A DNA stretch of 64,000 bases from Pempheris klunzingeri (lineage: Eukaryota > Chordata > Actinopteri > Acropomatiformes > Pempheridae): contig NC_092013.1 of the NCBI RefSeq assembly GCF_042242105.1, forward strand, positions 8,888,618 to 8,952,617. The letters are read 5' to 3'. Each line of letters opens with the position of its first letter. The first letter of the stretch is position 1. Below the pieces are notes generated by a model. That model saw only the letters and a list, made by a program, of their open reading frames with translations, was not told where the DNA came from and ran no database searches. Of this stretch, positions 2,934 through 45,750 are shown one piece after another. Both the position numbers and the translations under genes were made by a program.

Positions 2934-5900
2934 TCAGATGTAAATACGTTGAAGCACTCGCAGACAGAAGACCCAGTCAGGGGGAAGCTGATGATGCGAC
3001 ATCTTGTTTCCGTCTAGTCGTAATATCTTTATCCTGGAGTAGGACAGAGGTCCCACCTCTCTGCACAAACTAGTTATGTTGAACCCTGTGGTGATCAGAC
3101 AGAAAACAGACACATACAGACCATTTTTTATAATTAGACTCATTATTCAACAGAGTGGCAGCCATCTGCTTACTGCTGTGTTGTCAAAACATTGTAAATA
3201 CTAAAACAGTCCAGAGAGCTTTGATTTCACATCATGCATCATGTGCTCATCATCAGGTGCTTCATTTACATCATGAGATTCATCTATATGTAATAGGCTG
3301 CAAATGCTTTTCCTCTCAGAGAATCTGCATTTCTCATTAGATGTCTTGCAGGTGCTGTGGTAAAAACGGAGGATGAGGAAACCGCAACACCCTCTTTTGC
3401 TTTCTCACTTCATTTCAGTAGCAGAGCCCTCCTCGGCCCAGACTGTGGGCTTTGGCAGACAAGAACGCGCGGTAGCTGTCAGCCTGCTAGCTAGACGATG
3501 AGGTGTGTGTTTTTGTGGAAGTGTTTAGCTGTCGGTCTGTCTCACTGGTACACAGCCCCGCTGTCTGCTGCATCACAAATTGAGAAACAAGAAGACACGT
3601 TTGTTTGCCAAAGGCCTGTGAGTCAAAGCGGACATTGCTGCCGAACAGTCATGTGAGTCAAAATGTGGTGGTGTCCTGGTGACAAATCTTCTGGGTTGTG
3701 ATACAAATCCTATCTGTTCATAAAAGGTCAGTGTGACTGGGAGCAGACAGACAGAGAAGAGAAGGAGCAGACCATGAAGAGGGGAACAGCATGTGCTTCT
3801 GGCTCATCTGGCACTCTCACCTCTGAATCCATCACAGATGTTTTCATACCACTCTCCTCTCTTATTTGCTAGCCTACTTTTCCTATCCCACCACCCAATA
3901 ATCTCTCCCTGTTCTCTCCTCCACCCTCCTCTCACTTCTCTTTCCATGTCTCCGAGTCCCTCCCTTCCCTCTATTTTCTCTCTTCTTCCATCTCTGTCTT
4001 GCTTCGCCTGCTAGCTGCCCAATCCCAGCCCCTCCTGTGTACGTATGCAATGATGAGGGCCGGCTGTGTTCGTGGAGGCTGGGGCTCTACCGATTTCTTA
4101 CAGTTTTTGTCATATTTTCCACATTTCTCCCTCACAGCTGGCTTTGGATGTCAGACCCCCACCCCCCAGGTGGCTAGCCACATAATATGGTACTTTGCTG
4201 TCACAAGAATTGTTTCCATTGTTGAAGTTTAAACTGTATGAGTGTGTGCACATGTGTGGGATATCGCAGCATTTCACAGGGATGAAGTCAGCGACACCTC
4301 TATATTCCCAGTGTGAAAGGTGACTGCAGTTTGCATCTGTGTGTATGTGGGTGTTTTTCATGAGTTAATTCAACTCGCCTTGTATTTCATTGGCCTCCAG
4401 GTATAGGTACTGCAGGGTAGTGGGGACTGTGGGCACAGTAATCAGTTTGTTGTAAGATAGATCCAGTTCAACCAAGCTGGAGAAGTTGAAGACCTGCCGG
4501 TGGACTGCGTGGCTCTGGAGACCACAGTGACTTAAACGAAGATACTTAAGGTTGAGAAATCCCTCAAAACTGTCCTGATCCAGCCCAGAGAGAGTGTTAT
4601 TGGACAGATAGAGCTGCTGGACAGATGGGGGTAAATGCCTGGGAATGGACGAGAACAAATTCCCACTGAGGTCCAGCAGGTTCAGGCTCACTAGACCTGC
4701 AGGATGTGGGGAAGACATAGACATGCATGCACACATGGAAATTAATACTGACAAATTTGTGTAACAAACAGAATGAGTTTGATGATTGTCAGTGTTAAAT
4801 GCCAGTCTGCCATTTTCTGTTAATGAGTGTAGTCATGTTATTTTATGACCTCTTATTTCAGCACCTACAGTAAAGGGGTCAGATGCACCAAACAGGTATC
4901 ATAGACAATAGCAATCGTTGAGTTTGAGGTTGGAAGTATCTATGAGTTCATCACTACTTTCATTGAAGTATTCTTTGACAATATAATGATAGGAACAGGT
5001 GTTTAAGCTGTTTTACATCTTTGAAGTATGAAATGAAAATTATGGACAGAATGCGAGATTTTATGATGCATGACATATTTGCTGATAGACACGAATTCAA
5101 ATCCCTTATAACAATTACACAACCGCTATACTCCAGCCACCCTAATAGCCACCTGTTTAACATGGACATGTTTCATGTGTCCTTGTTTGACTGTTGTTTC
5201 CGTGTGAACAAAACACAAAACGGTGCCGTCTTCACTCTCTTTCAATTCCAAAGTAGACTCTGCATGTGTAAAGAAAGGAAATGACACATCACACTACCTT
5301 TGAGGTCTCCCTCTGTGATGGTTTGCAGTCTGTTTCCCTGCAGCAGCAGCAGCGTCAGGTTGTGCAGGTTCTGGAAAGCTCCGGGGCTGATGCTGCTGAT
5401 TTGGTTGTGGGCCAGTCGTAGCTGCTTGAGTCTAGCTGGCAGAGAGCTGGGAACTGATTTCAGGTTGTTGTGGTTGGCAAACAAGTAGCACAGCTGCGTC
5501 TGGTTCTGCAGGGCAGCCTGCTCTAGCATGTTGCTCTGCAGCTGGTTGTGGTCCAGAATGAGCCAGCGTAGATCAGTAATGTTGGCCAGAAAAGAAGAGG
5601 ACAGGGACGTGATGTTGTTGCCCTGGGAACAACAAAAGAGAAGGGAGTAAATGAAAAAAATGACAACTGACAGCTAATGTGGGAATGTGAATGGGAGCAG
5701 GAAATGATAAAACCACAGTGGGCTAGCGGTAGACCATTGTAATACAACACACGCTCAGCACCCGTGTCAGTGTTTTTTATACCTGTAGAAAAAGGTACTG
5801 AGTTCTGTTCGGCAGGCGGTCAGGGGTGTCTGCCAGGCCTCTGTGGTCACAGTAGAGCGCTGTGGGCCACTGGATGGGGCAGTCACATTGTTGAGGGCAG

Positions 5901-6088
5901 GCCTGGGGGTTGTTAGCTCGGAACCAGGCTCGGTCCATCCGTCCCTGGAGGCTCAGCACACTGGGCTCACCCAGCAGGCGATTGATCCACATAGGAACAC
6001 CTCCATAGTCCATGTCAACTATAACAGTGGCTGAGGTAGAGTCAAAAACACACAGCAGCACCAGCACGGCACAGCACAGGAGAGCCAT
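2934..6088 (-). CDS. Lumican-like class II small leucine-rich proteoglycan
   Basis: Coding exons on the minus strand are 6088-5783, 5622-5298, 4696-4379 and 3085-2934, giving 366 aa. The ATG at 6088 lies just inside an exon whose acceptor is at 6115-6116, so a non-coding first exon is expected further upstream. Residues 1-20 look like a signal peptide. The N-terminal cap has the class II spacing C-x3-C-x-C-x9-C (Cys64, 68, 70, 80). About ten leucine-rich repeats follow, and a C-terminal disulfide pair Cys324/Cys357 brackets the last repeats. Several Asn-x-Ser/Thr sites lie in the repeats, as in keratan-sulfate proteoglycans. The final exon carries 'GPLSYSRIK-LRLDGN', closest to lumican; the PRELP/keratocan insertion before this motif is absent. 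The family binds fibrillar collagen and regulates fibril assembly. It lies divergent to fmod, where PRELP sits in human, so a diverged PRELP or a lost-elsewhere paralogue is the alternative. The third coding intron begins with GC instead of GT. Confidence 0.88.
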
Positions 6089-6414
6089 GAAGACAGCTGG
6101 TGGGAAATGTAAACCTGCAAATTGCACATTAAGAGAAAAATGTTAAATAAATTGTCAGAGTCAGTTCATTAGTTATGTTAACAGTATTGTGAAAAAAAAG
6201 TGTAATTTTGCTCTATAAGAGCTTTGTTAAGTCTTGCCGGGATGAGAACTAGCCCACAAATGTTTAACAGACACCCTGCGGGGCAATCAGCTGCATTATG
6301 GGAAACAAAGTCTTCAGGTTATTTGAGCTTGACCCATACTACCTCTGCAGCATTAGCTTTGACCATTCATTTTTAGACAGATTTTTAGAGATTTTAGGGA
6401 TTTCTCTCATCCTG

Positions 6415-17172: not shown

Positions 17173-17851
17173 GTAGGTGTGTGTGTGTGTGTGTTTGTAT
17201 GTACATGCATGTGTGTGAACATGTGTCTTTCTGTCTGCCTGCCTGTCTGTCTGTCCATCTGTCTGTCTCAGTGGCATTTGTCTATGAAACCTTATAGGAC
17301 ACGAATAAACACATGATGATAGAGTCATATTTTTGCTTGTCTTCTACAAATCAAAGGGTAATTATTGGATATTTTCCCACAATTTTGGAGCAGCAGTGAG
17401 AACCATTGACAAAGCTGGCTTTCATGGTTAGGTTTTTTTCTTTCTTCTCAATGCTTCCTCTCTGGATTCCCTGTGGATTAAGAACCCTAAGAATGTACCT
17501 CTCTGTGGGTAGTTACATTTCTAAAACAGTGAGAGGAGTTGTGTTTGTGCAAAGTTTCTTTTTTGACTTTTTGGTGGCTTATTGAACATTTTGTTCATCT
17601 ATTTTTGCAAATCCTGTACCTCTATGTTATATAACAGAGTCACTTGCCAATAGTGGATACCAAGGGTCTGCACAAAGACACATTGTTTCAGCTCTGAGCT
17701 GTATCTGTTTCAAAATTTAAAATAAGTCAATGTAGCTCCATTAATATAATAGTTCTGTCAATTTGTGAATAACTATGTTTGCATTTTGAATTTTATTCCT
17801 TTGTCTCTCTGTCTGTGTCTCTGTTAGATTACAGTGAAGACTTGTGTGACT

Positions 17852-20800
17852 ATGGCCATGCGTGTGGTGATTGTCTTCCTCTTGTCTGCCCTGCTTCCAT
17901 TCTCTCTCTCCCATCGATGGGACCCCCTCGCTTGGGTATATGGCCGGCGGAGCCAAGGACATGAGTTTGCCTCTCTGCAGGCAGGCCCCACAGGACTGGA
18001 GTGTCCAGATGAGTGTGACTGTCCCCCCTCCTTCCCAGTCGCTATGTACTGTGATGGGCGGGGCCTGACAGCCATGCCAGCCATTCCCTCCCGTGTGAAA
18101 TACTTGTACCTCCAAAACAATGCCATCACAGCAGTGCCCGACTCAGGTCTAGTCAATGCAACCAATCTGGTGTGGCTCATGATGCATCACAACCAGCTGA
18201 CATCTGATGCCATTGGCAAGAAGGTAAACCTACATCTGGTCACAGTCAGATGTGGCCAAACATGCGAGCTCGGAGCATAAAGCAAAGATGCTGGTATAAA
18301 TGGTTGTCAGGTGGCTGGCAAGCTGTGTAATTAGGAAAAAGTAATTGTTTTATTGCTGCAAATGTGAGTGAATGAAAGTTGGATTTTTATGCATTCGGAC
18401 ATGGTGAAATTATGTATAAAAAAGCTTCCTGTCTGCTACAGCATACACATCTGTGAAGTAAATCACTCTCCTTTGGGAAAAATTGAGAAACCAAAAAGGA
18501 AACATTTATATTTTTGAGTTGTATTATGTCACTTCTTGTCTTTGCATTAATCCATTGGAATACAGTTAGTTCTCATTTTACATAGATGGAGAACTTGTTT
18601 CCATGCAGCCAATACATTTTTCCATAAAACAAAAAAAAAAAACAGTAACGGCACTGTTCTAAAACAGATTTATGGTTTTAAGTGTCTGTGTCCAAAATCA
18701 CTCCCTATTTACTATATAGTGAAGTAGATTTACTGTCCACCATTTTACTTGAGTGTCTTAATGGTTGAATTTGTCCGCAACATACTGCCCTCAAATATTC
18801 CAAAGTGGAATGAAAAAAGTAGAGTCTGTCTGTGGCGTATACACTAGACTCTGTTAACAATACCATAATGCAATGCTCCCTTTTTTAAGATGAAAAAGAT
18901 TTCCTATTGTCGCATGATATGAAATGATAATGATTACTTTTCGAAATCTCAATTCACTGCACGCTGTTGCGTAAAGTATTGAGTGTCCATTACAAAGAGT
19001 TCATGAATGTTCTTTGTTCATGAATGAATGAACAAAGAAAGTGATTTCAGAGGCAGCCACTGACCCAACACCGCAAGAACCAGAGACACAAACAATCCTG
19101 CTCCTAGCGTCTAATTCCTATCTAACTTACAAACATGTACAAACATCTTGCGCAACACCAAACATTGACATCTAACCTCTCCATTTTGCAGGCTAGATAG
19201 CTAGTTAGCTGGTCGGCTGCAGCACATTAAACAGCATTTAAACATACCATTCTCTCTTCAGTCAGTTTTGATGATGGTGTGGTCCTTTCTCCTCAGTGCC
19301 ATCACTAACATCATACTGTTTGTCCAGAACTTGTAGCTGGATTAATGGACAGTGAGAGTTTGTTTACTTTGGAAACTTGTCATTTCCCTGCTGGTGCTCA
19401 GCCTCAGCTGTCAATCAAACAGTCGAGTGAAAGGAAAAACCATTTTCCTTTCCCTTAAACTTATTTTGTTGGCAACCCTAAACCTAAAACAGTATTAATA
19501 ATACATTTGAATTAATAATGGCATCTTTTTTGACAGCAAATAGAGATAACTTAACCTGTACTTTTTCATGCTGTTAACATAACTATTATTCTTACTATTC
19601 TCCACATCGTTTTTGTAGGCATTCCTGAAGATGGAGGCATTAGAGCGTTTGTATCTACAACACAATAATCTGACCAGCATTCCATCTAACCTGCCTCGCG
19701 CCCTACGAGACCTGAGACTTAACCACAACAGGATTGAGAAGGTAAAGTTTTGCATAGTTGCAATGTTTACGCAGAGCCCCTCTCTTATCTCGTGAACACT
19801 TTTGGCCACACATCTGAAACACCAGACTTTAAAATGGTTCTTGTTGCCCAGGCAACAGCTGCAGATCTAGAGGGAATGGATAACCTCACTATCCTGTACC
19901 TCCATGACAACTCTGTCACTGACATGGGCACATCCCTGAAGGCACTGAAATCCCTCACACTGCTGGACATCAGCGGCAACAAGTTGACAAAGGTAATTGT
20001 GTGTGTCTAAATGTTCGCAATTGTCCTTTAAAGTCAATGATTAATCTCCAATCCTCACACAATATTGTCATTAATTGATTCCAGGTCCCAGAGGCACTCC
20101 CCGAACATCTGCACCAACTCTACCTGGAGTCCAACTCCATTGATTCTCTACCAGAGGGCTTCCTGGGCCGTTTCACTCAGCTGCAGTACGTCAGACTGGC
20201 CCACAACCAGCTAACAGATAAGGGTATCCCTTCCAACACCTTCAACGTGACTGGACTGGTGGAGCTGGACCTGAGCTTCAATAAACTGGAGCGAATCCCT
20301 CCAGTGAGCACCACATTACAGCATCTCTATCTGCAAGCCAACCAGATCAAAGGTAAAATGCATACACGTATAAGTTATCATTTGTGGACGTGCATCTTTT
20401 CAGAAAACCTGTTGAAAATGCTATTCTAAAAAGCTGTGAAAGAGCCTGAAAACATTTTCTACGAGCGATGCGGTTTGGACACAACACATTATATTCTGCC
20501 AAGTTTTCAGTTAGAAAAGATTTAGCAACATTTTAATCAAAATCAGATATCTGTGGTGTTGTTGGCTGATGTTTCCAGGCCGCTGTCAATCAAATCAGAC
20601 CAAATCACACCCACACAGTCTAGATGAAGCAGCATTTTTTTTTGTGTAGAACATTATTTACGGAGGTTTCCTTCCACACTTTAAAGTTGGTTGTTGCTCA
20701 TTTAGGTGTGAATATTAAACGCCATAGAAAGATATCATACCACTACTTTACTACTACTGCTACTACTATAGCAGCAGATTCATTTTCCTCCATAATATAC

Positions 20801-25285: not shown

Positions 25286-28200
25286 ATGAGGAAATACGGC
25301 TGGAACAGTTTTAAGGATTTAATTTTCAGAAATCCTGCTGTTGTCGACCAGGTAGGAATGTAAACCCGTTTGACCAGACTTTCACTTGATAGTTTAGCAC
25401 ACAATAGTTACATTGAATGACACTGAGGACCTGAGTGTTTGTCTGTACTTCTGATTTTTTTAAAGATACAAAAAAACAATGTAAATCCAAAGAGGAGCAC
25501 AAAACAAAACACATTATTTTATTATTATTATTATTATTATTTTATTTTATTTAGAAAAATGGAAGTGGTCACGCAAGTGAAAATTGTCTTTGGGTGATGA
25601 TGAAGCCTTTTTTCTCCCACAATCTTAATGTGACACAATAGTGGAAATAATCAGATTTCCCAATAAAGACTTACTGTATTTACTTTTCTTAAACATGACA
25701 TACTGTATTTGTATTTAGACGTAACAAGTAGTGACTCTTCAGTTTCAGCACACACTATCCTATGATATCTACATATTTTAGTCAGATATTATTAGATATC
25801 ATCATTCTACTTTTTCTTTTCTTCCTGTAGTTGTTTTTGTTAACATGTTACAGGTACAATATACAACATCTGACACATTTTACACCTTTTATCATAAGTC
25901 TTGAAATGTTTCAATGAGCAGGACCCACATGTGGATGATGGCGAAGAGAACACTGAGCGTGGAAACTGGGCCAGCAAGAAGGAATACATCCTCTCTACGA
26001 TCGGCTACGCTGTTGGACTGGGAAATATCTGGAGATTTCCATACTTGGCCTACAAGAATGGAGGAGGCAAATATTTGGTGTCTAATCCATCAGTGTTGGA
26101 AGTCATGTTTGATAGCATCAGTGTTAATATTGTATTTATTTTATTCCTGTACCACCCAATCTGCCAATTTGAGCAGGTGCTTTTCTCATCCCCTATTTTG
26201 TGATGCTGATGGTGGCTGGAATTCCTCTTTTCTTCCTGGAAAGTGCTTTTGGTCAGTTTTGCAGCCAAGGTCCAATCAATGTGTGGAGAGCAGTGCCAAT
26301 CCTGCAGGGTAAGACTCCCATTCAAGTCTTATGAAAGATGAGTCAGGTACATCTGAAGGTGAGGATGTCAAACACTTTATGAGGATTTGGTTCATTATTA
26401 ACTGCAGAACCAAAAATATGTCTTTTTTAATTACATTTAGGACTTTTTTTATGTGTCCAGACTCACACAGAGCTGCAGTGATTATTGTTCTTTTGCTTTA
26501 CCTTTATAGCCGATGCATAATCATTCAAATCAAAGGTACAAGCTGGATTACAACCTCACAGCAAGAAAATTTAATGGATGCTTTCACAGTTTTTCAAGTC
26601 TGTCACTTGTCAGGTGCCCATATGAACTTGAAATAGGTTTTTCTCACAGTAATTGTTCCTCCTGTTCACACTGGGCATTAAAAGATCCATTCCTTATGTG
26701 CTTTCAATGTAAGTGATGGGGGACAAAATCCACAGTTATCTTTTATTCAAAAATATAATCCAGAGTTTATCCAAAGCTAATATGAGGCCTGGGCAGTCAG
26801 AGTAAAGTGGAGGCCAATGGTTATCTTCCAAAGTTCCAGTCTTTTTAGTACAAAATTCATTCTTTTGGTTGATATCCCTCCACTGTAGCTCAACAGGGAA
26901 ACACTGTGTATAGAAAGACAGAAGAGGGAAGTTCATACTAAAAAGACTTGGGAGGATATTAACTTAATTTGCTGAGGTCTCACATTAACCTTCTGAATAT
27001 TTTTTCACAGAGCAAGGACTGTGGGAATTTGTTCTTCATCACTCACATTGAAAGATCTTTAGGAAGTATGAACAGGATAACAGCAAGCAAAACCTGTTTC
27101 AGTGTTTATATGGGCACCTGATGAATGGTTTCAGACAGACTTGGAAAAACTGTCAACCCACTCTTCATATTTATCTTAAGTTAAACTGAAATGATAAGAA
27201 AAAAACTCAACAGAATACCTGTAGAACTGAATTTGGAATGTTTGGTAGGTTTGTGTAGGTACAGTACAACTAAAAATCACATTTGAGGCAATGAAATCAA
27301 GTGACACTTAAGGATGTAATACTAAGTACAGTTAACATTACAAATACATGATTAACAAAACATTAATCGGTGCAACAAAAGGCTATAATGACACCGGAGG
27401 TCAATACTGTCTTGAGAACTGAAAAGAAATGTCGACTCTCAGACGCTTTTTTTAAAACAAACATCTTTATGAAGGGAAATGTCAGGACAGTTAAAAATAC
27501 ATGCACATTAACTGATAAAGAAAAGTTCAATAAAAAGTAAATTTTTTTTTTATTTCAAAGAGGTTTCTTACAATAAAACTTGATAAAAGCAACAGTGTTG
27601 TATAACCTCTCTCTCTTCCTCCCCAGGTGTTGGCATTGCCATGGTTATCGTGACTCTTATAGTATCAGTTTACTATAACGTCATCATCGCCTACAGCCTG
27701 TACTACATGTTCGCCTCCTTCCAGTCTCCTCTGCCGTGGTCCACCTGCCTCAGCTGGGCCGACAGTAACTGCAGCAACACGCCTATGGGTGCTTTTTTTA
27801 ATCTCCAATTCTTGTGAAGGGGTGTTGATTGAATCTGCTGCTTGATGGATGCTGGTATCAGTGTCTTAGGGTGGGAGTAGCAAATAAAGGATAAATAAAA
27901 GATTGAAAACTATACTAAAAACAGGAACTGCAGGTCAGAGGTGTTTAGTATCAGTGCTTAAAAGTGTTCTCTTGCAATATAAAAGCAGGTTAAAACTACT
28001 TCAGGTAAAGCTTAATAATAAAATGATTCTTCCATTCTGACAAGTTATTGATTGTGGGCCTATATACTCATTACACAGACCCATATTTGTATATATATTT
28101 ACTTTTCTAGTGTACTGCAATGTCAGTGGGGTTTTAGTGGCCAACTGGACTCAGGAAAACAGCACTTGTCCTTCATCCAACATGATCACAGTTCCAGTGC

Positions 28201-31200
28201 AGAGCCCGAGTGAGCAGTACTGGGAGTAAGAATCACACACTCACGCAAACATACATGAATACACACACTTGTTATACTGCTGTGGCTGTACAGTCAGACG
28301 TCTCTCCTCCTCAGTCGTGTGGCTCTGCAGAGATCCAGTGGTCTGGATGAAACAGGACCAGTAGTTTGGCACTTGGCCCTCTGTCTGCTGCTGAGCTCCA
28401 TGCTCGTTGCTGCGGCACTGATCAGAGGCATCAAGTCCTCAGGAAAAGTAAGTAAGTTCTTCCTCACAGCGAATCTTTGCCCACAGGCCAACGTCAGGGC
28501 CAATGCATATTCTAAGCCCACTGCAAAAATCAACAGCAGAATGTCCCGTGATTTTTGTCTAAAGGGTTTTTTGCAATGTGAAAAAAGCAAACTTCTCACG
28601 TGGCTACATGCCAAAAAAGACTCGTTCCATGGAGCTAAAATCCGTGCATTTCACTCAGAGTTTAAAAACATGGGCTTTTGAACATATCTGGTATCATATC
28701 TTAGCTGCCATGAGACAGGACAGGGAGTCCATTGTTTCCAACCACTATCTGTATTTCCCATGTCAAAGGAAATTCCACATTTTGGGATATACGCTTATAA
28801 GCTTTCGTGTTGAGAGGAAACTAAGACCTGATAACACTGTCATGTCTGTACAGTAGCAAGACAAGACAAGAGCCTTTATCCATGCTGTCTGCTCTGTGAG
28901 GCAGCGCTGAGGCAAAGTGGTGCTTTGAGCTAAATACAACCATCAACATATACAGTACAACATATTCACAATGCTTACATACATGTTTAGCAGGTATGTT
29001 TGTCATGTTTATTATTTTAGTTTAATATTTGCTCAGCACTTAACACAAAGTACCATCGAGGCTAATAAGTTTTAGTTTTGTCACAAACCAAAAGTTTTAG
29101 AGACGCTTATAGGTGGATTTGTTGACTCTAGTTAGCTGTTACCCACTTTTCGTCCATGAGTTTTTGTGCTAAGCTAAGCTAACCAGATGCTGACTGTAGC
29201 TTTAAATATTCTCTTTTTAACTCTCATTTTAACAAAAAAAAAGAGCAAGTAAGTTTTAAAGTGTTAAATGCCCAATGGTTCCATAAAAATCTACTCATTT
29301 ATGTGCAGATTTTAGCTAAAACTAGCCTGAGATTACGGTTGTGTGTGAAATGTTAGATGTATATTTACCTTTACATCTGCAGGGCCTGATATTAGAATTT
29401 ATGTTTGAAAGTCAACAGTAACAATGCAAAAAGATATAAATGATTTAATGACTTTTTTCACAGTTTTTACTCTTGGCTTTTGTTTCTCCAGGTCGTGTAT
29501 TTCACAGCTACATTTCCTTACGTGGTGATCGTGATCCTGCTGATCAGAGGTGTGACACTAGAGGGAGCTCGAGATGGGATAGAGTTCTACATTGGCTCTC
29601 AGTCGAATTTGACTAAACTGACAGAAGCACAGGTTGGGACTCAACTATCCCTGCTGAGATGCGCCACAGTACAGTAATCTAAGATTGAGAAATATAACTC
29701 TCCTTTGATTTAAAGCATGTCTGTGTTTTTTTTTTTTAGGTCTGGAACGATGCAGCAACTCAGACCTTCTACTCTCTTTCCATTGGCTGGGGTGGAGTCA
29801 TGACTCTGGCTTCCTACAACAACTTCCACAACAATATGTTCAAGGACGCATTTGTTGTAACACTTACCAATGCTGGTGGGAGCACAGCTACTCTGACTGC
29901 ATTATTTAAATAAAGTTTAAATAATGTATATGTGTATCTTGTTAATCTTTCATCTCCTTCTAGGTACCAGCGTGTTTGCAGGCTTTGCCATATTTTCAGT
30001 TTTGGGTCACATGGCTCACGTCTACAAAATGCCAGTTGGAGAAGTGGTGAAGGAAGGTCAGACGGACACACCATGTGGGCACCAATTAATACGAATTTGT
30101 AAAAATCTCTAGGTGGCCTCTGATGTACTTGTGTCTTTGTCTTTGTACAGGATTTGGCCTGGCATTCATTGCATATCCGGATGCTCTGTCTAAGCTTCCT
30201 ATTTCCCCTCTGTGGTCCATTTTGTTCTTCTTCATGCTCTTGACTGTTGGTCTGGACTCTCAGTTTGCAGGAATAGGTGAGATCTTCAGTTGCCACATTC
30301 AGACCTTTGCTGTTTCCATAGATTGATGTAAATCTCTCTTCCTTTTCATTAGAGGTGATCATCACCTGCCTGATCGATGCCTTCCCCACAATCTTCAAAT
30401 CCAAACGTGCTTTATTGACCATAACAGCATGTTCCGCCCTCTACCTCGTGGGCCTGCCATGTGTCACAAGGGTAGGTCTGACTTAGTGAAACTTAATGTG
30501 ACTGTTGTGTGAGATAGGCCTAGTTACAGTAACTAACTCAGCTTGTGTGTGTGTCTCTGTTAGGCAGGAATATACTGGGTAACTCTAATTGACCAGTTTG
30601 TTGCCACCTGGGTGCTGCTTTTTTTGGCTTTCTTCGAGATCATTGGTGTCTGCTACATATATGGTAAATATGATCAATGTATATCTGCACAGATAAAAGC
30701 TTTAAAGTCCAGCTACAAATGTATGTGTATTCTTCTCAATCTTTCCAGGAGGGAACCGCTTCATCAAAGACATTGAGATGATGCTTGGAAATAAGAGTTT
30801 CATTTTCTGGCTGTGGTGGAGGGCGTGTTGGTTCTTCATCAGCCCCTCCGTCATTGTGGTGAGTCCAGCATCATAAAACATTTGGACATGCCACATGTTG
30901 ATGTGTCCCATCATAGGACACATACACAAGAGCAACATAAAAGAAATAGAAAAAGGTGGCTGTCTGTCTCTGCCAGCTGCCACTGAACTTGTGTTTCAAG
31001 ATCTAAAACTGAATGATGGCAAATCAAATGAATTATATTCAGATTTCATGTTTCAGCTACTTTTGAGCAAATTTAAAAGTGAACATATAAAACTGACCTA
31101 TGTTCAAACAGGCTCTATAAATAAATCTTCAATCTTCTTACACATATACACAACATTAGTTTGGATCATGTTTGATGGATGAAAGTGTCTGACTTTGTTG

Positions 31201-31684
31201 TCTAGGTGATCCTGATCTGGTCTCTGATGACGATCAGGCCCCCCTCCTATGGAGAAGTGCAGTTCCCAGACTGGGGTTTGTCTCTGGGCCAGTGCATGGC
31301 TGTGTTCATCCTCCTCTGGATCCCTGCCGTCGCTGTGTATAAACTGATGAGGGCAGAGGGAAGCATCTGGAAGGTGTGTATGTGTGTTACGATAGCTGAC
31401 AAAATATGGTGGTTCTGAACACCACCTCTTTTACCATTTTTCCTATCATTGCATGTTGAGATTTCTTAATTTCATGAATTCAAAGAAGGAAAAAAATGAC
31501 ACCAACCTCTTAATCTCCACAGCGTCTGAAGTCATTGTGCTCTCCAGCTGAAGAATGGCATCCCTACCTGGACATCCATCGAGGACAACGCTACTCAGAA
31601 GAACGCTGCCGTCGCAGGACAACCCGTGGAAACAGACCAGAAATGAATGTAAATGTGAATGTAATCTCTAGCTCTTGGCTCTGA
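25286..31684 (+). CDS. slc6a14: SLC6A14-like Na+/Cl- amino-acid transporter, copy 1
   Basis: Fifteen exons: 25286-25351, 25922-26066, 26177-26308, 27627-27788, 28111-28225, 28315-28447, 29492-29632, 29740-29875, 29964-30056, 30151-30276, 30353-30471, 30564-30663, 30749-30858, 31206-31373, 31523-31684. They give 635 aa, close to mammalian ATB0,+. TM1 has '[14 protein letters not shown]' (residues 50-63), the Na+ and substrate-binding unwound helix. The large extracellular loop 2 (exon 5) has three N-glycosylation sites. 'VALQRSSG', '[13 protein letters not shown]' and 'HRG-RYSEE' near the C-terminus are close to SLC6A14. Unwound TM6 reads 'YSLSIGWGG' with Trp315. The family carries neutral and cationic amino acids into cells with 2-3 Na+ and Cl-. 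Intron 2 begins with GC (26067-26068); the sister copy has GT there. Intron 6 (1.04 kb) is filled by dispersed repeats; intron 3 (1.3 kb) shows nothing recognisable. An SLC6 glycine-transporter relative is the alternative identity. Confidence 0.93.
25517..25553. repeat. (TTA)n-rich simple repeat
   Basis: AT-only tract of TTA and TTTTA units inside intron 1 of SLC6 copy 1. Confidence 0.85.
28764..28866 (+). repeat. Dispersed repeat family R1 (head), in SLC6 copy 1 intron 6
   Basis: Begins 'aaggaaattccacattttgg' and continues to 'gtcatgtctgtacagtag'. It matches the head of the R1 copy at 14955 in the same orientation. Confidence 0.6.
28880..29075 (-). repeat. Dispersed repeat family R2, inverted
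   Basis: In reverse orientation it shows the R2 order: 'ctctgtgaggcagcgctgag', 'gtgctttgagctaaat', 'tgtttagcaggtat'. It lies between two R1 pieces in the same intron. Confidence 0.6.
29090..29280 (-). repeat. Dispersed repeat family R1, inverted
   Basis: Contains 'gctaagctaagctaaccag' and 'gctgactgtagcttta', the reverse complement of the R1 core, with the R1 head at its right end. It is oriented opposite to the R1 fragment at 28764. Confidence 0.65.
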
Positions 31685-35543: not shown

Positions 35544-36080
35544 ATGTGGAAGTATGGCTGGAACACTTCCAAGGATCCTGCTATTCTTGCTGATCAGGTA
35601 AGAGGATTGTTCGACATCTATATATTAGTAACAAACTGTAGCCTGGTTTCTTCTATTATTTATCACAGTGTTTAAAATATGCATTATTCACATCGCTGAT
35701 TGAAGTGACAGCCAAGTATTGGCTAGTTTGTTAGACAGATGGTTCAGTTTGCTACAAACACAACAAAAGATGGAGAAATATATACAGCAATATACAGCAG
35801 CCTTGCATGCCACCATTTATGTCCTATATTTAATATGATAACATTAGGATGATTTATCTACCTTCTGCTACAGCGGTCGTGTGATGGATAAATGCACAGA
35901 TGTGTTTCCCCTCAGAGGTTGAGTTTGAACATTTGCTTGATCCATTAAACTTCTTATTCAACATGATGATGGTAGCAGGTGTCATTCAAAGGGCTGTTAA
36001 CAGACCAAAAGGGAATTTCTCTGTTTTTATGATGATTCCAAGTGGGAGGTGACAAGTGCGTTTTATACACCACCATGTGT

Positions 36081-36130
<50 letters not shown>

Positions 36131-39100
36131 TATAGATAGATAGATTCATTTAGGTCAAAGCCACCAGACAAAAACGATAATTTTACCTTGCAGAAATAGA
36201 AGGTTGTTGGTGTAGTTGCTGTTACTGAGAGGTAAAATGACTGTTACATCTAGTGATGTAACGTCTGTTTCTGGTTGAACAAAAAGTATCTTACAGGTCT
36301 GTCTTTGTAAGGATGCTTTCTGTAATCATTATCAGACATTTGACACTTTGCATTAGAAAACACAAAGGTCTGGTTTGTTTGGTTCTTACATTGTTTATAC
36401 CATCAATTTATACCATAGATAATATCTAACTTAAAAAATGTTTTTTTTCACTCTGCTTTCAGCAGGACTCTCATGTGGATGATGGTGATGAGAATCCTGA
36501 GCGTGGAAACTGGACCAACAAGGCCGAGTACATGCTCTCTATGATAGGCTTAGCTATTGGCCTGGGGAACATCTGGAGATTTCCATATGTAGCCTATAGG
36601 AATGGAGGGGGTAATTATTTGGCTTCAGTGTTTAGAAAATTACTAACTGTATGATGACACTGTTGTGAGTATTATGAACATTATGAAAACATGCTTTTAT
36701 CCCTGCGAGCAGGTGCCTTTCTGGTTCCCTTCTTCCTGATGCTGGTTTTGTGTGGACTTCCTCTTTTCTTTCTGGAAAGCGCCATCAGTCAGTTTTGCAG
36801 CCAAGGCCCGATCAACGTGTGGAGGGCAGTGCCGATCATGCAGGGTGAGTCTGAGAGGGCAGAAGAAAACTTCTGCAGCTCAAGGCCGACATATTAAATG
36901 TGACTTATTTGCTGTCAGTAAACAGTAACACCCAGTTTAACTATTTGATAAAAATTTAAATCTCAGTGAGACAGATCCTCCAAAAATATATTATAATTAT
37001 TGAAAGAGCGGCCACTCTTAATTGCTACAACAATTAAACCTGAACAAAAAACAACAATTAGAACTAAATAGTAGATAAAAGTACATAATAGTGGATAAAA
37101 CAGAATACAAGGTAACAAAATCTGATCCGGTCCCAAACATTTACTCACATTGCAACTAATTAAAAAGTTACAAATGTCCTTATGGGTTGCATATAAGGAA
37201 AGCACATAGTTATCCACATTGTACTATACATGGATAAAGCAGCAGAGAAAAGGTTAAAGGGCTCAGTTGGGTCAGATAGTAGATTTTTCCATTTAGAAAT
37301 GCTATATTTCCATAACACTTATTATACATGTATTATTGCCTGTTGTCTTCTCCAGGTGTTGGCTTCTCCATGGTTATAGTGAACGCATTGGTGTCAGTTT
37401 ACTATGGCGTCATCATCGCCTACAGCCTGTACTACATGTTTGCCTCCTTCCAGTCTCCTCTGCCGTGGTCCACCTGCCTCAGTTGGGCCGACAGTAAATG
37501 CAGCAACACGCCTCTAGGTGCCTTTCCACTCCATCACCTTTACTGATGATGACATTAATATAACTGAAATAGCACACAGGATGGAAAAGTTCAACAAAGT
37601 ATCCTCAAAGCTATTGAAGGGCAGTTCAGTGTCGTTCATCAGAATCAAGCACCATAGATCCATGTAATGCAAACACTGCTTCTTGGGAACTATTTATATT
37701 TGTTTGACACAGACTGACATTTTCTCCTTTTCTAGTGTACTGCAATGTCAGTGGTGTTTTAGTGGCCAACTGGACTCAGAAAAACAGCACTTGTCCTTCA
37801 TCCAACATGATCACAGTTCCAGTGCAGAGCCCGAGTGAGCTGTACTGGGAGTAAGAATCACACACTCACGCAAACACACATGAATACACACACTTGTTAT
37901 ACTGCTGTGGCTGTACAGTCAGACGTCTCTCCTCCTCAGTCGTGTGGCTCTGCAGAGATCCAGTGGTCTGGATGAAACAGGACCAGTAGTTTGGCACTTG
38001 GCCCTCTGTCTGCTGCTGAGCAACATGTTTGTTGCTGCGGCGCTGATCAGAGGCATCAAGTCCTCAGGAAAAGTAAGTAATTCTTCCTCACAGCGAATCT
38101 TTGCCCACAGGCCAACGTCAGGGCCAATAGTCCATAGTTTGTGAAAATCAACTTCTCCCTCCAGTGCATGAAAACAAGAGTGTTTGTTGAAGGGTAATTC
38201 CAGCATTTTTAAACCTAAGCCCCATTTTTACAAATTTTGGGTACAAAATTACTGTTTTTGTCAATGGAGTCTGGTGGCTTTAAACTAAGTGATATAGTGG
38301 TTGTTTCTTGTTAAGCAAAAAGGTCTTACATGTCTTTCTCTGTAAGGATGCTTTCTGTAATCTTATCAATTTGAACTATAAACTGAGCCTGTCATAGGCG
38401 AAAACAAGCACTTTTATGGATGTACTTTGACGGGCATGGTTGCCCTAAAGGATGACATTACAGCCACTGTAGCCTGTTTGTGGGTCCCAGCTGAGGAGAT
38501 CTACTGGACCAGTTGAATCTTTTTGTACCTATCAGTCACTTTAAACTCAAAATATATAAAAATAGGGTCCAGGTTTAAAAATTAAAGTTAATTAATTAAA
38601 TTATTAGTTATCCCTTAAGGAAGGATTATATGATAAAACCATATTCATAGATGAACACATCACACGTAATTTTACATCTCTTCCAAATGAGACATTTGCA
38701 TTTCTCTGCGGTCATCTCACACTTGAGGCTTTTGTTTTTCCAGGTTGTGTATTTCACAGCTACTTTTCCGTATGTGGTGATTGTGATCCTGCTGATCAGA
38801 GGTGTGACACTAGAGGGAGCTCGAGATGGGATAGAGTTCTTCATTGGTTCCAAATCCAATTGGACTAAACTGACTGAAGTACAGGTAAGAAGCCAGCTGT
38901 TTACAACACAGCAGGGCCTTAGTCGGCTCCAGCCACAGCAGCAACTCTGTGTGCCATTAATATTGCAGGCTTTTGTTCATTAACTAAAGTATTGGGGAAA
39001 AAAACTAAATTTTTACCTGATGATGATGCTAGATGGAAAGTTAAAGGATCACAAAAGTTGTTAAATTTTTTCTGAGGATCCACTGAAAATCACAAATGTT

Positions 39101-40770
39101 GCCCTCATTGCTTACTTTGTGTTTTTACCTGTAAAACATTCTGCAGCTGCCTTTACAAAGTGTGCACTTTTGCATGTAGAATGTATACAACTGGAACATG
39201 CTACTTTAACACAACATTGTGGCTCGAACTTTGACCCTCATGCTCATACATCCACCGCAGTCCTACCGTGCCCAGTCATCTCTCTATGCTCAGTCACTGT
39301 GATGCATCAGAGTAGCCACAAGAGCAGGCTGGCCTGCAAACTGCAAAATGCGATGGTTGTATGAGGACATCCTGGCATTTGTGGCATACTGCATGTGACA
39401 TACTACATACTTGGACAGACTAAAACTTTTTCTGGCATGCTAAATAGTATGGTAGCAAGGGCATTGGAACTAGAGGTGCTAGAGGAAGGGCAAGATATAA
39501 GGTACAACATTTCAAAGCAATCCACCCAATAGTTTTTGTGATATTTTCAGCCTGGGCCTACTGACAGACACCCCCATAGTCACACCACCAGCAGGGCTAA
39601 AAATTGTTTGTAAAATATGTCCTATATCACTGTTTTAAAACATGTTGGTGTGTTTTAGGTCTGGAAGGATGCAGCGACTCAGACGATTTTTTCCCTATCC
39701 ATCGCTGCGGGTGGAGTTTTGACTCTCGCTTCCTATAGTAACTTCCACAACAACATGCTCATGGATTCATTTGTTGTAACTTTCTGTAACCACGGTAGGA
39801 AAACAACTATTTCATTTGAAGCACTGTTTCTAATAAAGTTTATCTATTTTTGTATCTTTAATACTGAGAAAAAAATCCTCAGTGCTAAGTAAAGCTAAAA
39901 TAATTTCATGTTATAAGTACGTAATTTAGTAATTTTATTAAAACCACGATTTTGAAAATTGGTGAGCTGGCGAAGAGCAATCCAGAGGGACCACTCAGTC
40001 CTTGGACTCATCCATATTAGTTGTTGAATTCAATTTCTGTGGCCAAATATAAGTGATGTGACCATTTTCATCTCCTCTTAGGTACCAGCGTGTTTGCAGG
40101 GTTTGCAATCTTTTCCATTTTGGGTCATATGGCTCACATCTATGGAAAGCCAATTGGAGAGGTGGTGAAGGATGGTCAGTCACTTAGAGGATACTACATT
40201 ACTTTTCAGAAAATGTCAAAAAGCCGCTCTGTGTTCTCTGATGTTCTGTTTCTCCATCTGTGTGCAGGATTCGGCCTGGCATTCATTGCGTATCCAGACG
40301 CTTTGGCTAAACTTCCCATTTCCTCTCTCTGGTCTGTCCTGTTTTTTTTTATGCTTTTCATCATCGGCCTGGACTCTCAGTTTATACAAATAGGTGAGAG
40401 TGTCATTTAACAGTGGCTCAGGGGTCATTCCTCTCTGACTTTCATGCATTTATATTTAAAACTAATCTAACCAAAGCAACAGTCCTGATCCATGTTGAAG
40501 CAGAAAATCACTGTTTACCACTCAGCCTAAAGTAGTTCAGTTGGCTGAGTTGGATGAGTGAATTCTCATCTCTCCTTCTGTCATTAGAGGTGATCATCAC
40601 CTGCCTGCTCGATGCCTTCCCAGAAATCTTCAAATCCAGACGTGCTTTATTGACTGTAACAACATGTTCCATCATCTACCTCCTGGGCCTGCTATGTGTC
40701 ACAAGGGTATTGTAGATCTGCCGACAGTGACTTTAATAACATTGTCTGATATTATTACCCTGCTCACCTG

Positions 40771-40823
<53 letters not shown>

Positions 40824-42461
40824 ACAGGCAGGAATATACTGGGTAACTCTAATTGACCAGTTTATTTCCAACTGGGTGCTGCTCATTTTGGCGCTAATGG
40901 AGGTCATTGGCTACTTCTACATATATGGTAAATATAAATGACAGCTGTATAAACTGTATGTGTGTGCACATATACCGACTGTATGTGAATCTCAGTAATG
41001 AATTAGTCTCGTTGCTTCTCAGTACTTTCAGACTTCCTTATCCTCTCATGTCAGTCTGGACCGAAGTGGCTCACCAATCGACTTTCATAGCCTTCCCTAG
41101 AGCCAGACCACTAGAAGGGTTACATTTTTTCGTAAAATAGGCAGGCACTATAACTTTAGCGAATGCTAACACAAACTGTTTCTGCTGTAGAGTATTATGA
41201 GGAGTATTTTGTGCAGTATTAATCATTTTTGGACAGAAATGCCCAAACATCTTTTACATAAAGGAATACGCTATATGCAAACCATTTTTTAGTAGAAAGA
41301 ATTAATTGTTGGTTTTGGTCTTTTGGCTGGATTTGTTAACAATAAGTACAACATAGAATGCCCCCAAACTTAACAGAATAATAGTCCTCTTCACAGTAAT
41401 CTATTATCTGTGATTCATCCCTCCTCTGGAGACATGGCCATGAGTACTGATGTATGTACATGTATTTGTCATGTGTTACAGGTGGGGACCATATTATTAA
41501 AGACATTGAGATGATGATTGGAAAAAAGAGCTTTTGCTTCTGGCTGTGCTGGAGAGTATGTTGGTTCTTCATCAGCCCCTGCATCATACTGGTGCGTATA
41601 ACCACTCTTGGCTTCTTTTCCTTTATATTTTACCACCTTTAACAAACACTATGCCTATTTTCACTTTCAATTCCCTCTTCACAAAGCACTTTTTGAAGGC
41701 TTTATGACAACATAAGCCTGCATAATGCAAGTTTAAGATTGGTCTGCTTTCTCTCTTTTCTCTCTTTTGTTTCTCTTTGTGACTGTTGTTTTGCAAAACG
41801 CTCCACACATTAGATTTATTTACTTAACGTTATGTTTACTTGAAGAAGTATCCTGGTTTAAGATTAGTTACATCTGTGAGTTTATTAAAATTGTAATTAG
41901 AGACAGTGATTCAGAGGCTAATCCTCAGCATAACAACACAGAGAAAGCTCCTTGACATGAGGGCTTTGGGTCATAAAGGCCGGTGTGATACTTACAGGAT
42001 GTTCTGCTCACCAAAAACTTTTCTGCCTAGGTGGTCCTGCTCTGGTCTCTCGTAACCTTTGTGCCTCCCTCCTATGGAAAGGTCCAGTACCCAGTCTGGG
42101 GCTTGGCTCTGGGCTGGTGCATGGTTGCGTTCGTCCTCCTCTGGATCCCTGTCGTCGCCGTGTATAAGCTGATGAGAGCAGAGGGAAGCTGCTGGATGGT
42201 GTGTATTTTATTGTGTATAATACAGGAAGCACTTAAAGCACATTGAAATTTTCTTCTATAAATTTTAAGCAATCATGTAATTTTAAGAGTGAACCCATAT
42301 TCGTGATCCTGATCGTACCATACTTTCTGCAGCGTCTGAGGTCATTGTGTTGTCCCTCTGAGGAATGGCATCCCTACTTAGAGGTTCATCGAGGAGAACG
42401 CTACTCAGAAGAGCGCTGTCGTCAAAGAAGAGCAGAGTCAACAAACAATAGGAAAATGTAA
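35544..42461 (+). CDS. slc6a14: SLC6A14-like Na+/Cl- amino-acid transporter, copy 2
   Basis: Fifteen exons: 35544-35597, 36466-36610, 36713-36844, 37356-37517, 37736-37850, 37940-38072, 38744-38884, 39659-39794, 40082-40174, 40268-40393, 40588-40706, 40828-40927, 41482-41591, 42031-42198, 42333-42461. They give 620 aa. Thirteen of fifteen exon lengths equal those of copy 1 (only the first and last differ), so this is a tandem duplicate. TM1 reads '[14 protein letters not shown]' (46-59). Unwound TM6 reads 'FSLSIAAGG', with Ala311 where copy 1 and human have Trp. The extracellular loop 2 glycosylation sites are kept. Exon 2 has a tandem acceptor (CAGCAG-type), so one Gln may be included or skipped. 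The exon 12 acceptor follows directly on a (GT)n tract. The frame is intact throughout, so this looks functional, with possibly altered substrate choice. Introns 6, 7, 12 and 13 hold repeat fragments or nothing recognisable. Confidence 0.93.
36079..36145. repeat. (TAGA)n microsatellite
   Basis: About 16 GATA/TAGA units with one interruption, in intron 1 of SLC6 copy 2. The minus-strand 'YLSI' frame across it is an artefact. Confidence 0.95.
36275..36345 (+). repeat. Unnamed repeat shared by two introns (copy a)
   Basis: Carries 'gtaaggatgctttctgtaat' preceded by a 'cttacaggtctgt' motif. A near-identical block occurs at 38315-38375 in intron 6 of the same gene. Confidence 0.65.
38315..38375 (+). 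repeat. Unnamed repeat shared by two introns (copy b)
   Basis: Carries 'gtaaggatgctttctgtaat' and a 'cttacatgtctt' motif matching the block at 36275-36345. Flanking sequence 38200-38580 may belong to the same element. Confidence 0.65.
39475..39600 (+). repeat. Dispersed repeat fragment, R2-type 3' portion
   Basis: In intron 7 of SLC6 copy 2: 'caatccacccaatagttttt' followed by a 'gatattttcagcctgg' motif. This resembles the 3' part of R2 as I remember it and the related segment at 47800-47860. Confidence 0.45.
40775..40821. repeat. (GT)n microsatellite abutting a 3' splice site
   Basis: About 23 perfect GT units end only 6 bp before the exon 12 acceptor AG (40826-40827) of SLC6 copy 2. They occupy the place of the polypyrimidine tract. 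Confidence 0.95.
41045..41105 (+). repeat. Dispersed repeat fragment, R2-type end
   Basis: 'cagtctggaccgaagtggct' followed by 'ccttccctagagcca', in intron 12 of SLC6 copy 2. It is recognised from memory as the terminal part of a common teleost repeat. Confidence 0.4.
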
Positions 42462-43143: not shown

Positions 43144-45750
43144 TTAAGCCCAGTTGCAGCACATGCAGCTGGTATCGAACACCAGGCCAGAAGCACAGTT
43201 CTGACTGTAGGTGCGTCCCTGGCTGCAATCGTAGAAGTGGTTCTTGTTGGTTGGGTCAGGGTAGAGACCGTCAGCCTTGCCAGCGCAGAAACCAGATCCA
43301 CCGCTGCTGCTGCCGCCGCCGCTGCTGCTGCCACCGCCGCTGCTGCTGCCGCCGCCGCTGCTGCTGCCACCACCGCCAGGCTGGGGCTGGGGCTGAGCGT
43401 GCTTTGTTGGTGTGACTGGAGGCAGGGGCTCAGGGCGAACTTTGCAGGCTGGGAGAGAAATCAAAGTAATTAAAAGATGGAAAGCTTTATCGTGTTTATT
43501 ACCAGTTGATATGTGGTTCATGCTTACAAGTTCCAGTTCCCAGTCCACTCTTGAGGGTGCTGATCAGGGGGTATTTTCCCTGGCCACAGAAAGTGCCACT
43601 GAAGTCGTCCAGATCCAAGCTCCACACCATGGCTCCACCGTAGCCGCTCTTCTTCAACCAGTCAATCTGTAGAGTGGACGAAAGGTGAAACCAAGGGTTA
43701 GATAACCTTAAGACATAAACATTTGTGACCAGAAGTTAAATGATCAAATAAAACTTCATGCCTTAATATTGAAGCTCTTAACATCATCATATCCAACCCA
43801 GGTTCCCTGTTTGTAGGCGTATGGCACATCCTGGGGGGCATTCCATTCCTGAGTGGCTCCCTGCTTCAGGAAAGTGCAGATCTGATGGGAAGTAGAGATT
43901 TATGGTTAGGGATCTATACAATGTATGTGCATACAGTATGTTGCCTTAAAGCATATGCGTGCACACACAGATTCAGAAAAAAAAAGAACAAACCTCATAG
44001 TAGGCCCAGAAGCCAGCCTGACGAGTGAAAGGTCCAGCAGGTCCAGGTCCATTGGCGGGAGCTCCCACAGCGGTGTTAGAGGAAGCCAGGCGGAAGGTGT
44101 GGCCGTAGGTGGGGAAACCAACCAGCAGCTTCTCAGCTGGGGCACCATTGCTCTTCCAGTAGCCCATAGCATAGTCCTACACATGAGAGAGTACAGGCTG
44201 GTCTGAATATCTGTTCCTTAATTTGATTATCTTCAGTTGGCAGAAAGAGCGCTCACTCACCACATTGAAGTAGATCATGGCTCCCTGGTCAGCGGGGCCC
44301 CTGTACAGAGGGCTGTTCTCTCCGACAGTGTGCTCCCAAGGACCGTTGAAGTCATAGGTCATGACGTGGAAGTAGTCCAGGACACTGGCAAACAGGCATG
44401 AGGATTAAAGTTTAGCAAAGGCTGTCTTCTGTACAACAAATGCAAAGGTATGTAATGTTTGCATATGTACTTACGCTCCAATCGCGGCAATCTGGTATCC
44501 AGTCTCAATGGTTCCCTTTCCAGCAGACACAGCAGCAGTCAGCAACAGGCGAGGACGGTTTGTCTTCTTGCCCTCCTCCACAAAGGCGCTCATCAGCTCC
44601 TACAGACAGGCCAGGAGAGAGAAACGGTTACAGAGGCTGTATGATTGAATTTTTGTAAAACTGGCACTTGATGACTGTATTTTTCCTCTTGAATTTAACA
44701 GTGTATGCAGTGTATATTTGAGCACCACTGCAGTTACGGGTGTTTGGCTACTTCTGCCTACAACCTGGATTCAGAAATTGAACATCAATATGACCAACCT
44801 GGACCAGGACGGTATAGCGCGCCTTATCCTCAGGTGGAGAGCCACGAGAGCCAGGGTACTCCCAGTCGATATCCAGACCATCAAACTCGTACTGACGCAG
44901 GAACTTGATCACACTGCTGATGAAGGTCTGACGATTGGCAGCAGAGGAAACCATAGCTGTGAACCTGGAGACAGGAAGACAGAGTGTTTCTACCTGTGCT
45001 ACAAGTTTCTCTTTGGTGGGAGTATTGATCCTCATCTCATTACGACTTACTTCTGAGTGCCAAAGTTCCATCCTCCAATGGCCAACAGGGTCTTCAGATC
45101 GCTGTTCCTGCAAGCAGCAACAACATCCACTTTAACCTCTCACTCCTGATCTTATACATATTATAAGATATATAGATATTATAACATTAATGAGTGTTTT
45201 CATGTGTGCTGGAGTCACACTATCACAATGAGCGTGTGTGTACTAACTGGTTCTTCAGGGCCTGGAACTCTCCGTAGAGTTTCACATCGTCCCACTCGTA
45301 GGTCTTGATCATGTTGCTGTCCATTCCAGCAAAGGCATATATGAGGTGGTCACAGAGACATGGGTCCACATTGGTTGGGAAATACTTGCCTGCTCCAGGA
45401 CGGTACTGTCCCCAGTTAGTGAAATAACAGGAGAGGATGTAGGATGATCCTGCAACATATGGAACACTTGCATTTACATTCAGTTCCCAACTTAAATACG
45501 TCCGCATATATCCCACTGAATGGATAAAGGGTATGATTACCTAGCTGCACGTGCAGCAGGAGAGCCAGTCCTGCAGAGAGAGGAGTCAGAGTTAGAGAGG
45601 GTCAGAAGGAGGCTGGTTAAGTAGTTAATGAGAATCAGTCGGCATTATGCACAAGATTAAGTTAAAATTTGTACAAAACAACAATAAAGCTGCAAAAGCT
45701 TCAGTGAACAAAGAGCTCAGCTTACCGACGCAGATAAGTAGCTTGCCCAT
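43144..45750 (-). CDS. chia: Secreted GH18 chitinase, acidic-chitinase type with CBM14 tail
   Basis: Eleven minus-strand exons: 45750-45726, 45570-45541, 45449-45248, 45107-45051, 44964-44799, 44599-44475, 44384-44261, 44176-43994, 43881-43762, 43666-43528, 43448-43144. They give 491 aa. Residues 1-21 form a signal peptide, and the mature protein begins near '[10 protein letters not shown]'. The GH18 barrel contains the catalytic 'DGLDIDWE' with Asp136, Asp138 and the acid/base Glu140, so it should be an active endochitinase. '[10 protein letters not shown]' and '[13 protein letters not shown]' are further GH18 motifs. The C-terminus is a CBM14 chitin-binding domain with six cysteines ('[11 protein letters not shown]' to 'CCNWA'), joined by a Pro/Gln stretch and a Gly-Ser repeat linker. 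Fish chitinases digest dietary chitin and act in defence. Sequence is closest to CHIA, but location near fmod recalls human CHIT1, so orthology is open. Intron 9 begins with GC (43760-43761). The first two exons are tiny (25 and 30 bp). Confidence 0.95.
43300..43378 (-). repeat. chia: Coding minisatellite for the Gly-Ser linker
   Basis: About four 18 bp units, each encoding Gly3-Ser3 on the minus strand, between the catalytic and chitin-binding domains. On the plus strand it gives an alanine-rich spurious frame. Confidence 0.9.

Follow-up and report, generated by a model that had tools for sequence, protein, structure and literature searches.

Conversion between duplicated genes is a process already well known, and the tandem pair of SLC6 transporter genes described here is very probably one further case. 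In teleost duplicates, interlocus conversion accounts for a median of 7–8% of the post-duplication codon substitutions in 164 duplicated genes, according to PMC10503786. The present pair is like those genes in that fish paralogs appear to have been homogenised by interlocus conversion; however, the pairs treated there are whole-genome-duplication paralogs approached by statistical modelling, whereas here one tandem pair carries a discrete, visible tract. In mammalian CYP1A1 and CYP1A2, conversion is placed in the first 500 bp of exon 2 and in exon 5 by PMC3199271. The likeness to that system lies in the tandem arrangement of the paralogs and in the conversion of only parts of the gene; according to that paper, the converted parts of CYP1A1 and CYP1A2 include substrate recognition sites, whereas the putative substrate-site residues of the present pair are mostly found outside the homogenised patches. 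For duplicates of C. elegans, PMC3966223 gives tracts in the range of 12–2958 bp (mean 117), into which the 402-bp tract reported here fits, and introns form part of some tracts of Caenorhabditis paralogs (15% of the detectable events of a study cited there). The two systems are alike in having tracts that measure tens to thousands of bp and occasionally take in introns, but the animals are different and most surviving tracts in Caenorhabditis are 50–200 bp long, shorter than the tract here. Among the papers found on slc6a14 and gene conversion, none deals with conversion between fish SLC6A14 copies, as judged by titles and the beginnings of abstracts.

Results

The window analysed is a stretch of 64,000 nucleotides from Pempheris klunzingeri, located on contig C2 of a genome of 645.9 Mb in 439 contigs that was also used for all genome searches. 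It contains two SLC6 genes in the same orientation, about 10 kb apart (Table 1), both of which we take to be SLC6A14-like. The two proteins share 79% identity over 618 aligned residues, and each copy covers 523 of the 524 positions of the Pfam SNF profile PF00209 (E 1.8e-194 for copy 1 and 1.7e-181 for copy 2). The introns in the exon model of copy 1 are GT-AG except for intron 2, which is GC-AG; at the end of exon 2 (26066–26068) intron 2 starts with GC in copy 1 and with GT in copy 2. The best matches in a search of solved structures were glycine transporter 2 chains, and no SLC6A14 chain was present among the best 60 of 76 matches. The protein of copy 1 gave 87 matches in the genome; among the best 69 of 366 candidates scored, the nearest relative of each copy is the other copy, near matches are confined to these two, no third near copy was found, and the next paralog loci, at about 60%, are situated on C15 and C1.

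Table 1. Positions within the window of the SLC6 genes, their homogenised segments and the repeats of intron 6.
Feature	Position	Strand	Counterpart in the other copy	Description
Copy 1	25286–31684	+		Intact SLC6 (SNF family) gene; 15 exons; 635 aa; open frame
Copy 2	35544–42461	+		Intact tandem paralog of copy 1; 15 exons; 620 aa; open frame
Main tract, copy 1	28102–28504	+	37727–38128	97.5% identity over 403 columns (window self-comparison)
Main tract, copy 2	37727–38128	+	28102–28504	97.5% identity over 403 columns
Substitution island, exon 6	28397–28417	+	38022–38042	5 of the tract's 9 substitutions within 21 bp
Second homogenised patch, 3' part of exon 4	27679–27784	+	37408–37513	3 differences in 106, with exons 5–6 masked
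Third homogenised patch, exon 7 core	29531–29588	+	38783–38840	0 differences in 58, with exons 5–6 masked
Interspersed repeat with inverted ends, intron 6 of copy 2	38205–38582	+		Arms 38205–38254 and 38533–38582, 78% complementary
Other repeat-derived pieces, intron 6 of copy 1	28769–29218 (28769–29021 and 29133–29218)	+		Genome matches

Other coding features were also seen in the window. Pieces of a chitinase-like gene with glycosyl hydrolase 18 and chitin-binding CBM_14 domains adjoin the transporter pair on the minus strand (43147–45540). A single-exon open frame of 793 residues with leucine-rich repeats and an immunoglobulin domain occupies 60279–62657 of the plus strand, and further leucine-rich-repeat coding pieces were observed at 4368–6142 (minus strand) and 17828–18277 (plus strand).

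Self-comparison of the window demonstrated one segment in which the two genes are nearly identical, the remaining exon matches of the pair having 71–91% identity. A sequence-only reading had placed this segment at 28111–28503 in copy 1 and 37736–38127 in copy 2; the place was right, but the measured edges lie 9 bp further out on the left and 1 bp on the right. In copy 1 the tract starts 9 bp before the end of intron 4, takes in exon 5 (28111–28225), intron 5 and exon 6 (28315–28447), and ends 57 bp into intron 6. Aligned base by base, the two copies of the tract differ at 10 places, in agreement with the rough count made from the letters, namely nine substitutions (three in exon 5, one in intron 5 and five in exon 6) and a single 1-bp indel in the 57 bp of intron 6 common to both copies. 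Intron 5, described earlier as nearly identical over its full length, indeed differs at only 1 of 89 bases (99% identity). The edges at 28102 and 28504 are abrupt and the adjoining intron sequence is unaligned, just as that reading had it. The GC content of exons 5 and 6 (0.49–0.55) is within the range of the other exons (0.39–0.58), and that of intron 5 (0.45–0.46) is equal to or slightly above that of the other introns (highest 0.46). That the near-identity was produced during assembly or polishing, the reads of one copy having been assigned to the other and overwriting it, is very improbable, given the nine substitutions and the indel that separate the copies, both with open frames, the fixed edges and the length of the assembly (31.3-Mb contig).

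The tract corresponds to residues 169–251 of copy 1 and, going by SLC6 topology, presumably encodes extracellular loop 2 from its middle onwards, the whole of TM4 and the first part of the loop that follows, and not merely the start of TM4 named in the earlier reading. At the differing residues of the tract neither of the two outgroups (about 60% identity) matches either copy (exon 5, 0 and 0 of 2; exon 6, 0 and 0 of 2). When the tract DNA was searched against the 646-Mb genome, it was found at two places only and nowhere else, and a third gene copy as donor was rejected on this ground and for lack of a third near copy among the 69 of 366 protein candidates scored.

Divergence along the coding sequence was estimated as NG86 dS. 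Exons 5–6 have a value of 0.053, based on 3 differences in 58.5 sites; exons 4 and 7 together reach 0.298, and the value rises to 0.562 for exons 1–3 and 8–15. The longest identical run of the coding alignment, 91 nt across exons 5–6, was reached in 0 of 10000 column shuffles (largest 80), and so was the run of 56 degenerate codons for the same residue in both copies (0 of 10000; largest 51). The observed best segment was likewise reached in 0 of 10000 shuffles with three mismatch penalties, for nucleotides and synonymous codons alike, which excludes chance clustering of the differences. Synonymous differences number 2 of 73 in exons 5–6 versus 85 of 297 in exons 1–3 and 8–15 (Fisher 1e-7). 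Column shuffles ignore the variation of amino-acid constraint along the gene, but the synonymous and intron results are independent of it; since the homogenisation extends to synonymous sites and intron 5, purifying selection on the protein alone was rejected.

Outside the tract dS is also uneven (0.067 in exon 11, 0.255 in exon 12 and 0.33 in exon 14), so that a low dS is not diagnostic of the tract by itself, whereas the introns are. A sensitive blastn comparison of the 14 intron pairs, with the three best pieces taken per pair, gave no match with E below 1e-4 for introns 1–4, 7, 8 and 10–14. Intron 9 could be aligned weakly over 57 columns (68%, E 7e-6), marginal pieces in introns 7, 8, 10 and 11 are mostly close to the 3' splice site, and beyond the tract the only match in intron 6 is in its final 17 bp (E 0.04). 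Uniform identity along all introns, which the earlier reading had named as speaking against conversion, is therefore not what is seen. It is clear that outside the tract the two genes are old duplicates whose intron sequences have drifted past recognition. In exon 11 (30353–30471 in copy 1, 40588–40706 in copy 2), dN (0.141) exceeds dS, the reverse of the usual ratio; 2 of 30 synonymous sites differ, and the run test gave P 0.02 only with exons 4–7 left out, against 0.21 with all exons. This exon has perhaps undergone an older conversion followed by protein change, or the numbers are simply small.

Near-identity of two exons, one whole intron and part of another, amid introns that cannot be aligned, together with an about tenfold higher dS elsewhere, is what interlocus gene conversion typically leaves behind. 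Local identity is far above that of the rest of the pair at neutral and coding sites alike, and the abrupt edges have older divergence on either side. From the single genome examined, the tract is thus with high confidence the footprint of interlocus gene conversion between the tandem SLC6 genes, and the recent conversion proposed from the letters is upheld by the unalignable introns, the dS contrast and the shuffles. An unusually constrained element, for example one for splicing or regulation, kept identical by purifying selection rather than exchange, is a highly unlikely source of the same pattern: two paralogous copies alone do not separate constraint from exchange at a single site, but intron 5, the 57 bp of intron 6 and the synonymous sites are all nearly identical while the other introns are unalignable, and the segment is present at no other place in the genome, so that no relative shows its conservation.

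The sequences of intron 6 beyond the tract contain repeats that differ between the copies and are old (Table 1). The repeat of copy 2, itself old, matches 39 other places in the genome at 73–78% (best 40 of 1919 candidates scored) and is absent from intron 6 of copy 1, where the repeat-derived pieces have short matches elsewhere at 71–95% (best 40 of 180 candidates scored). Insertion of a repeat exactly at the tract edge was not seen, the copy 2 repeat starting 77 bp beyond it. If the 22–27% divergence between repeat copies is taken as age, the insertions would be older than the tract and the heterology on its right side would already have been present. Introns 1 and 6 of copy 2 (36252–36343 and 38288–38374) have a stretch of 92 columns in common with 82% identity; since its intron 6 part sits inside the interspersed repeat, fragments of that repeat may be present in both of these introns.

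An older or weaker form of the signal had been suspected in most of exons 4 and 7. Significant patches were found in both, although they cover only parts of these exons and are weaker when judged by synonymous sites. With exons 5–6 masked, the exon 4 patch has P 0.0007 at one mismatch penalty and 0.024 at a laxer one (then spanning 27665–27784), and its longest exact run has P 0.078. For the exon 7 core, the same masking gave P 0.003 and 0.0055; its synonymous run of 20 is not significant alone (P 0.49), and the laxest penalty placed the best right-hand segment at 30272–30619 (P 0.08) instead of in exon 7. In windows chosen post hoc, synonymous differences are 2 of 32 in the exon 4 patch and 0 of 19 in the exon 7 core versus 85 of 297 (Fisher 0.003 and 0.002, respectively). 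The flanks are diverged: 14 of 52 positions differ ahead of the exon 4 patch, and the exon 7 core has differences at 5 of 39 positions on its left and 9 of 44 on its right. Compared with the whole tract, the patches show no difference in divergence (Fisher 0.19 and 0.61); the exon 4 patch, however, does differ from the tract without its island (P 0.03), which leans towards more than one event. Further conversion is thus probable, though not certain, for the patches of exons 4 and 7, the outcome being sensitive to the test used.

A conversion templated by RNA or cDNA would explain why the patches of exon 4, exons 5–6 and exon 7 form a nearly unbroken series once the introns are spliced out (27679 to 29588), although the copies differ in introns 4 and 6; the top-scoring segment of the coding alignment likewise runs from the middle of exon 4 to the middle of exon 7. 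Such a conversion is nevertheless hardly credible, since the tract includes all of intron 5 and 57 bp of intron 6, and the 39 bp with which exon 7 begins, a stretch separating the patches, have 5 differing sites.

One feature counts against a simple picture of conversion, namely the island of substitutions that interrupts an otherwise clean tract in exon 6 and alters two residues of TM4 (S/N and L/F); the earlier reading had made no mention of it. Random placement of the nine substitutions reproduced such clustering in 248 of 100000 trials, or in 2188 of 100000 when the adjacent pair was treated as one event. The island may have escaped the conversion, may have arisen by clustered mutation or may reflect selection for a difference.

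Discussion

Interlocus gene conversion fits all the observations and nothing unusual is needed. The pair goes back to a duplication long ago, after which the introns drifted apart; a later break in one copy would have been repaired with the other as template, and about 400 bp from exon 5 into intron 6 would have been copied across, as the pattern of identity suggests. Copying would have stopped there for want of homology in intron 4 and the remainder of intron 6. The patches of exons 4 and 7 would probably represent further or partly overwritten events, since they are separated from the main tract by the unrelated intron 4 and the repeat-filled intron 6, and the number of conversion events was probably more than one. 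The divergence of the tract at intron and synonymous sites, 4 differences in 203.5 sites or 0.020 (0.005–0.050), equals 3.5% (1–9%) of the dS of exons 1–3 and 8–15, and is best explained by a fairly recent conversion, at about that fraction of the synonymous divergence reached elsewhere in the gene.

The two transporters differ at positions in TM1 (Y in copy 1 to L in copy 2), TM3 (N to G), TM6 (GW to AA) and TM8 (AG to IQ) that, from the LeuT fold, we assume to be near or lining the substrate site. All these putative substrate-site differences are outside the patches or at a patch edge, the TM3 site being outside the main tract and abutting the exon 4 patch. Where the copies differ, the residue shared by the outgroup is kept by copy 1 at 31 sites versus 14 for copy 2 with the C1 locus, and at 24 versus 13 with the C15 locus, counts that are biased to copy 1, which served as the query in aligning the outgroup letters, and that include some outgroup stretches running into introns (visible at TM10). 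Copy 2 has nevertheless changed at motifs on which copy 1 and both outgroups agree, examples being W to A in TM6 and Y to L in TM1, and judged by its residues copy 2 looks the more derived copy.

It is conceivable, although rather doubtful, that selection filters the conversion, so that the scaffold of loop 2, TM4 and TM5 is homogenised while alleles erasing the putative substrate-site changes of copy 2 are lost, and a new specificity would be kept in a refreshed frame; the five-substitution island of TM4 would then be another protected spot. Phylogenies or duplication dates derived from exons 5–6 of this pair would mislead. The pair represents a compact case of two intact transporters with a converted scaffold and a diverged putative pocket, and may serve as a test bed for how selection shapes the conversion that survives.
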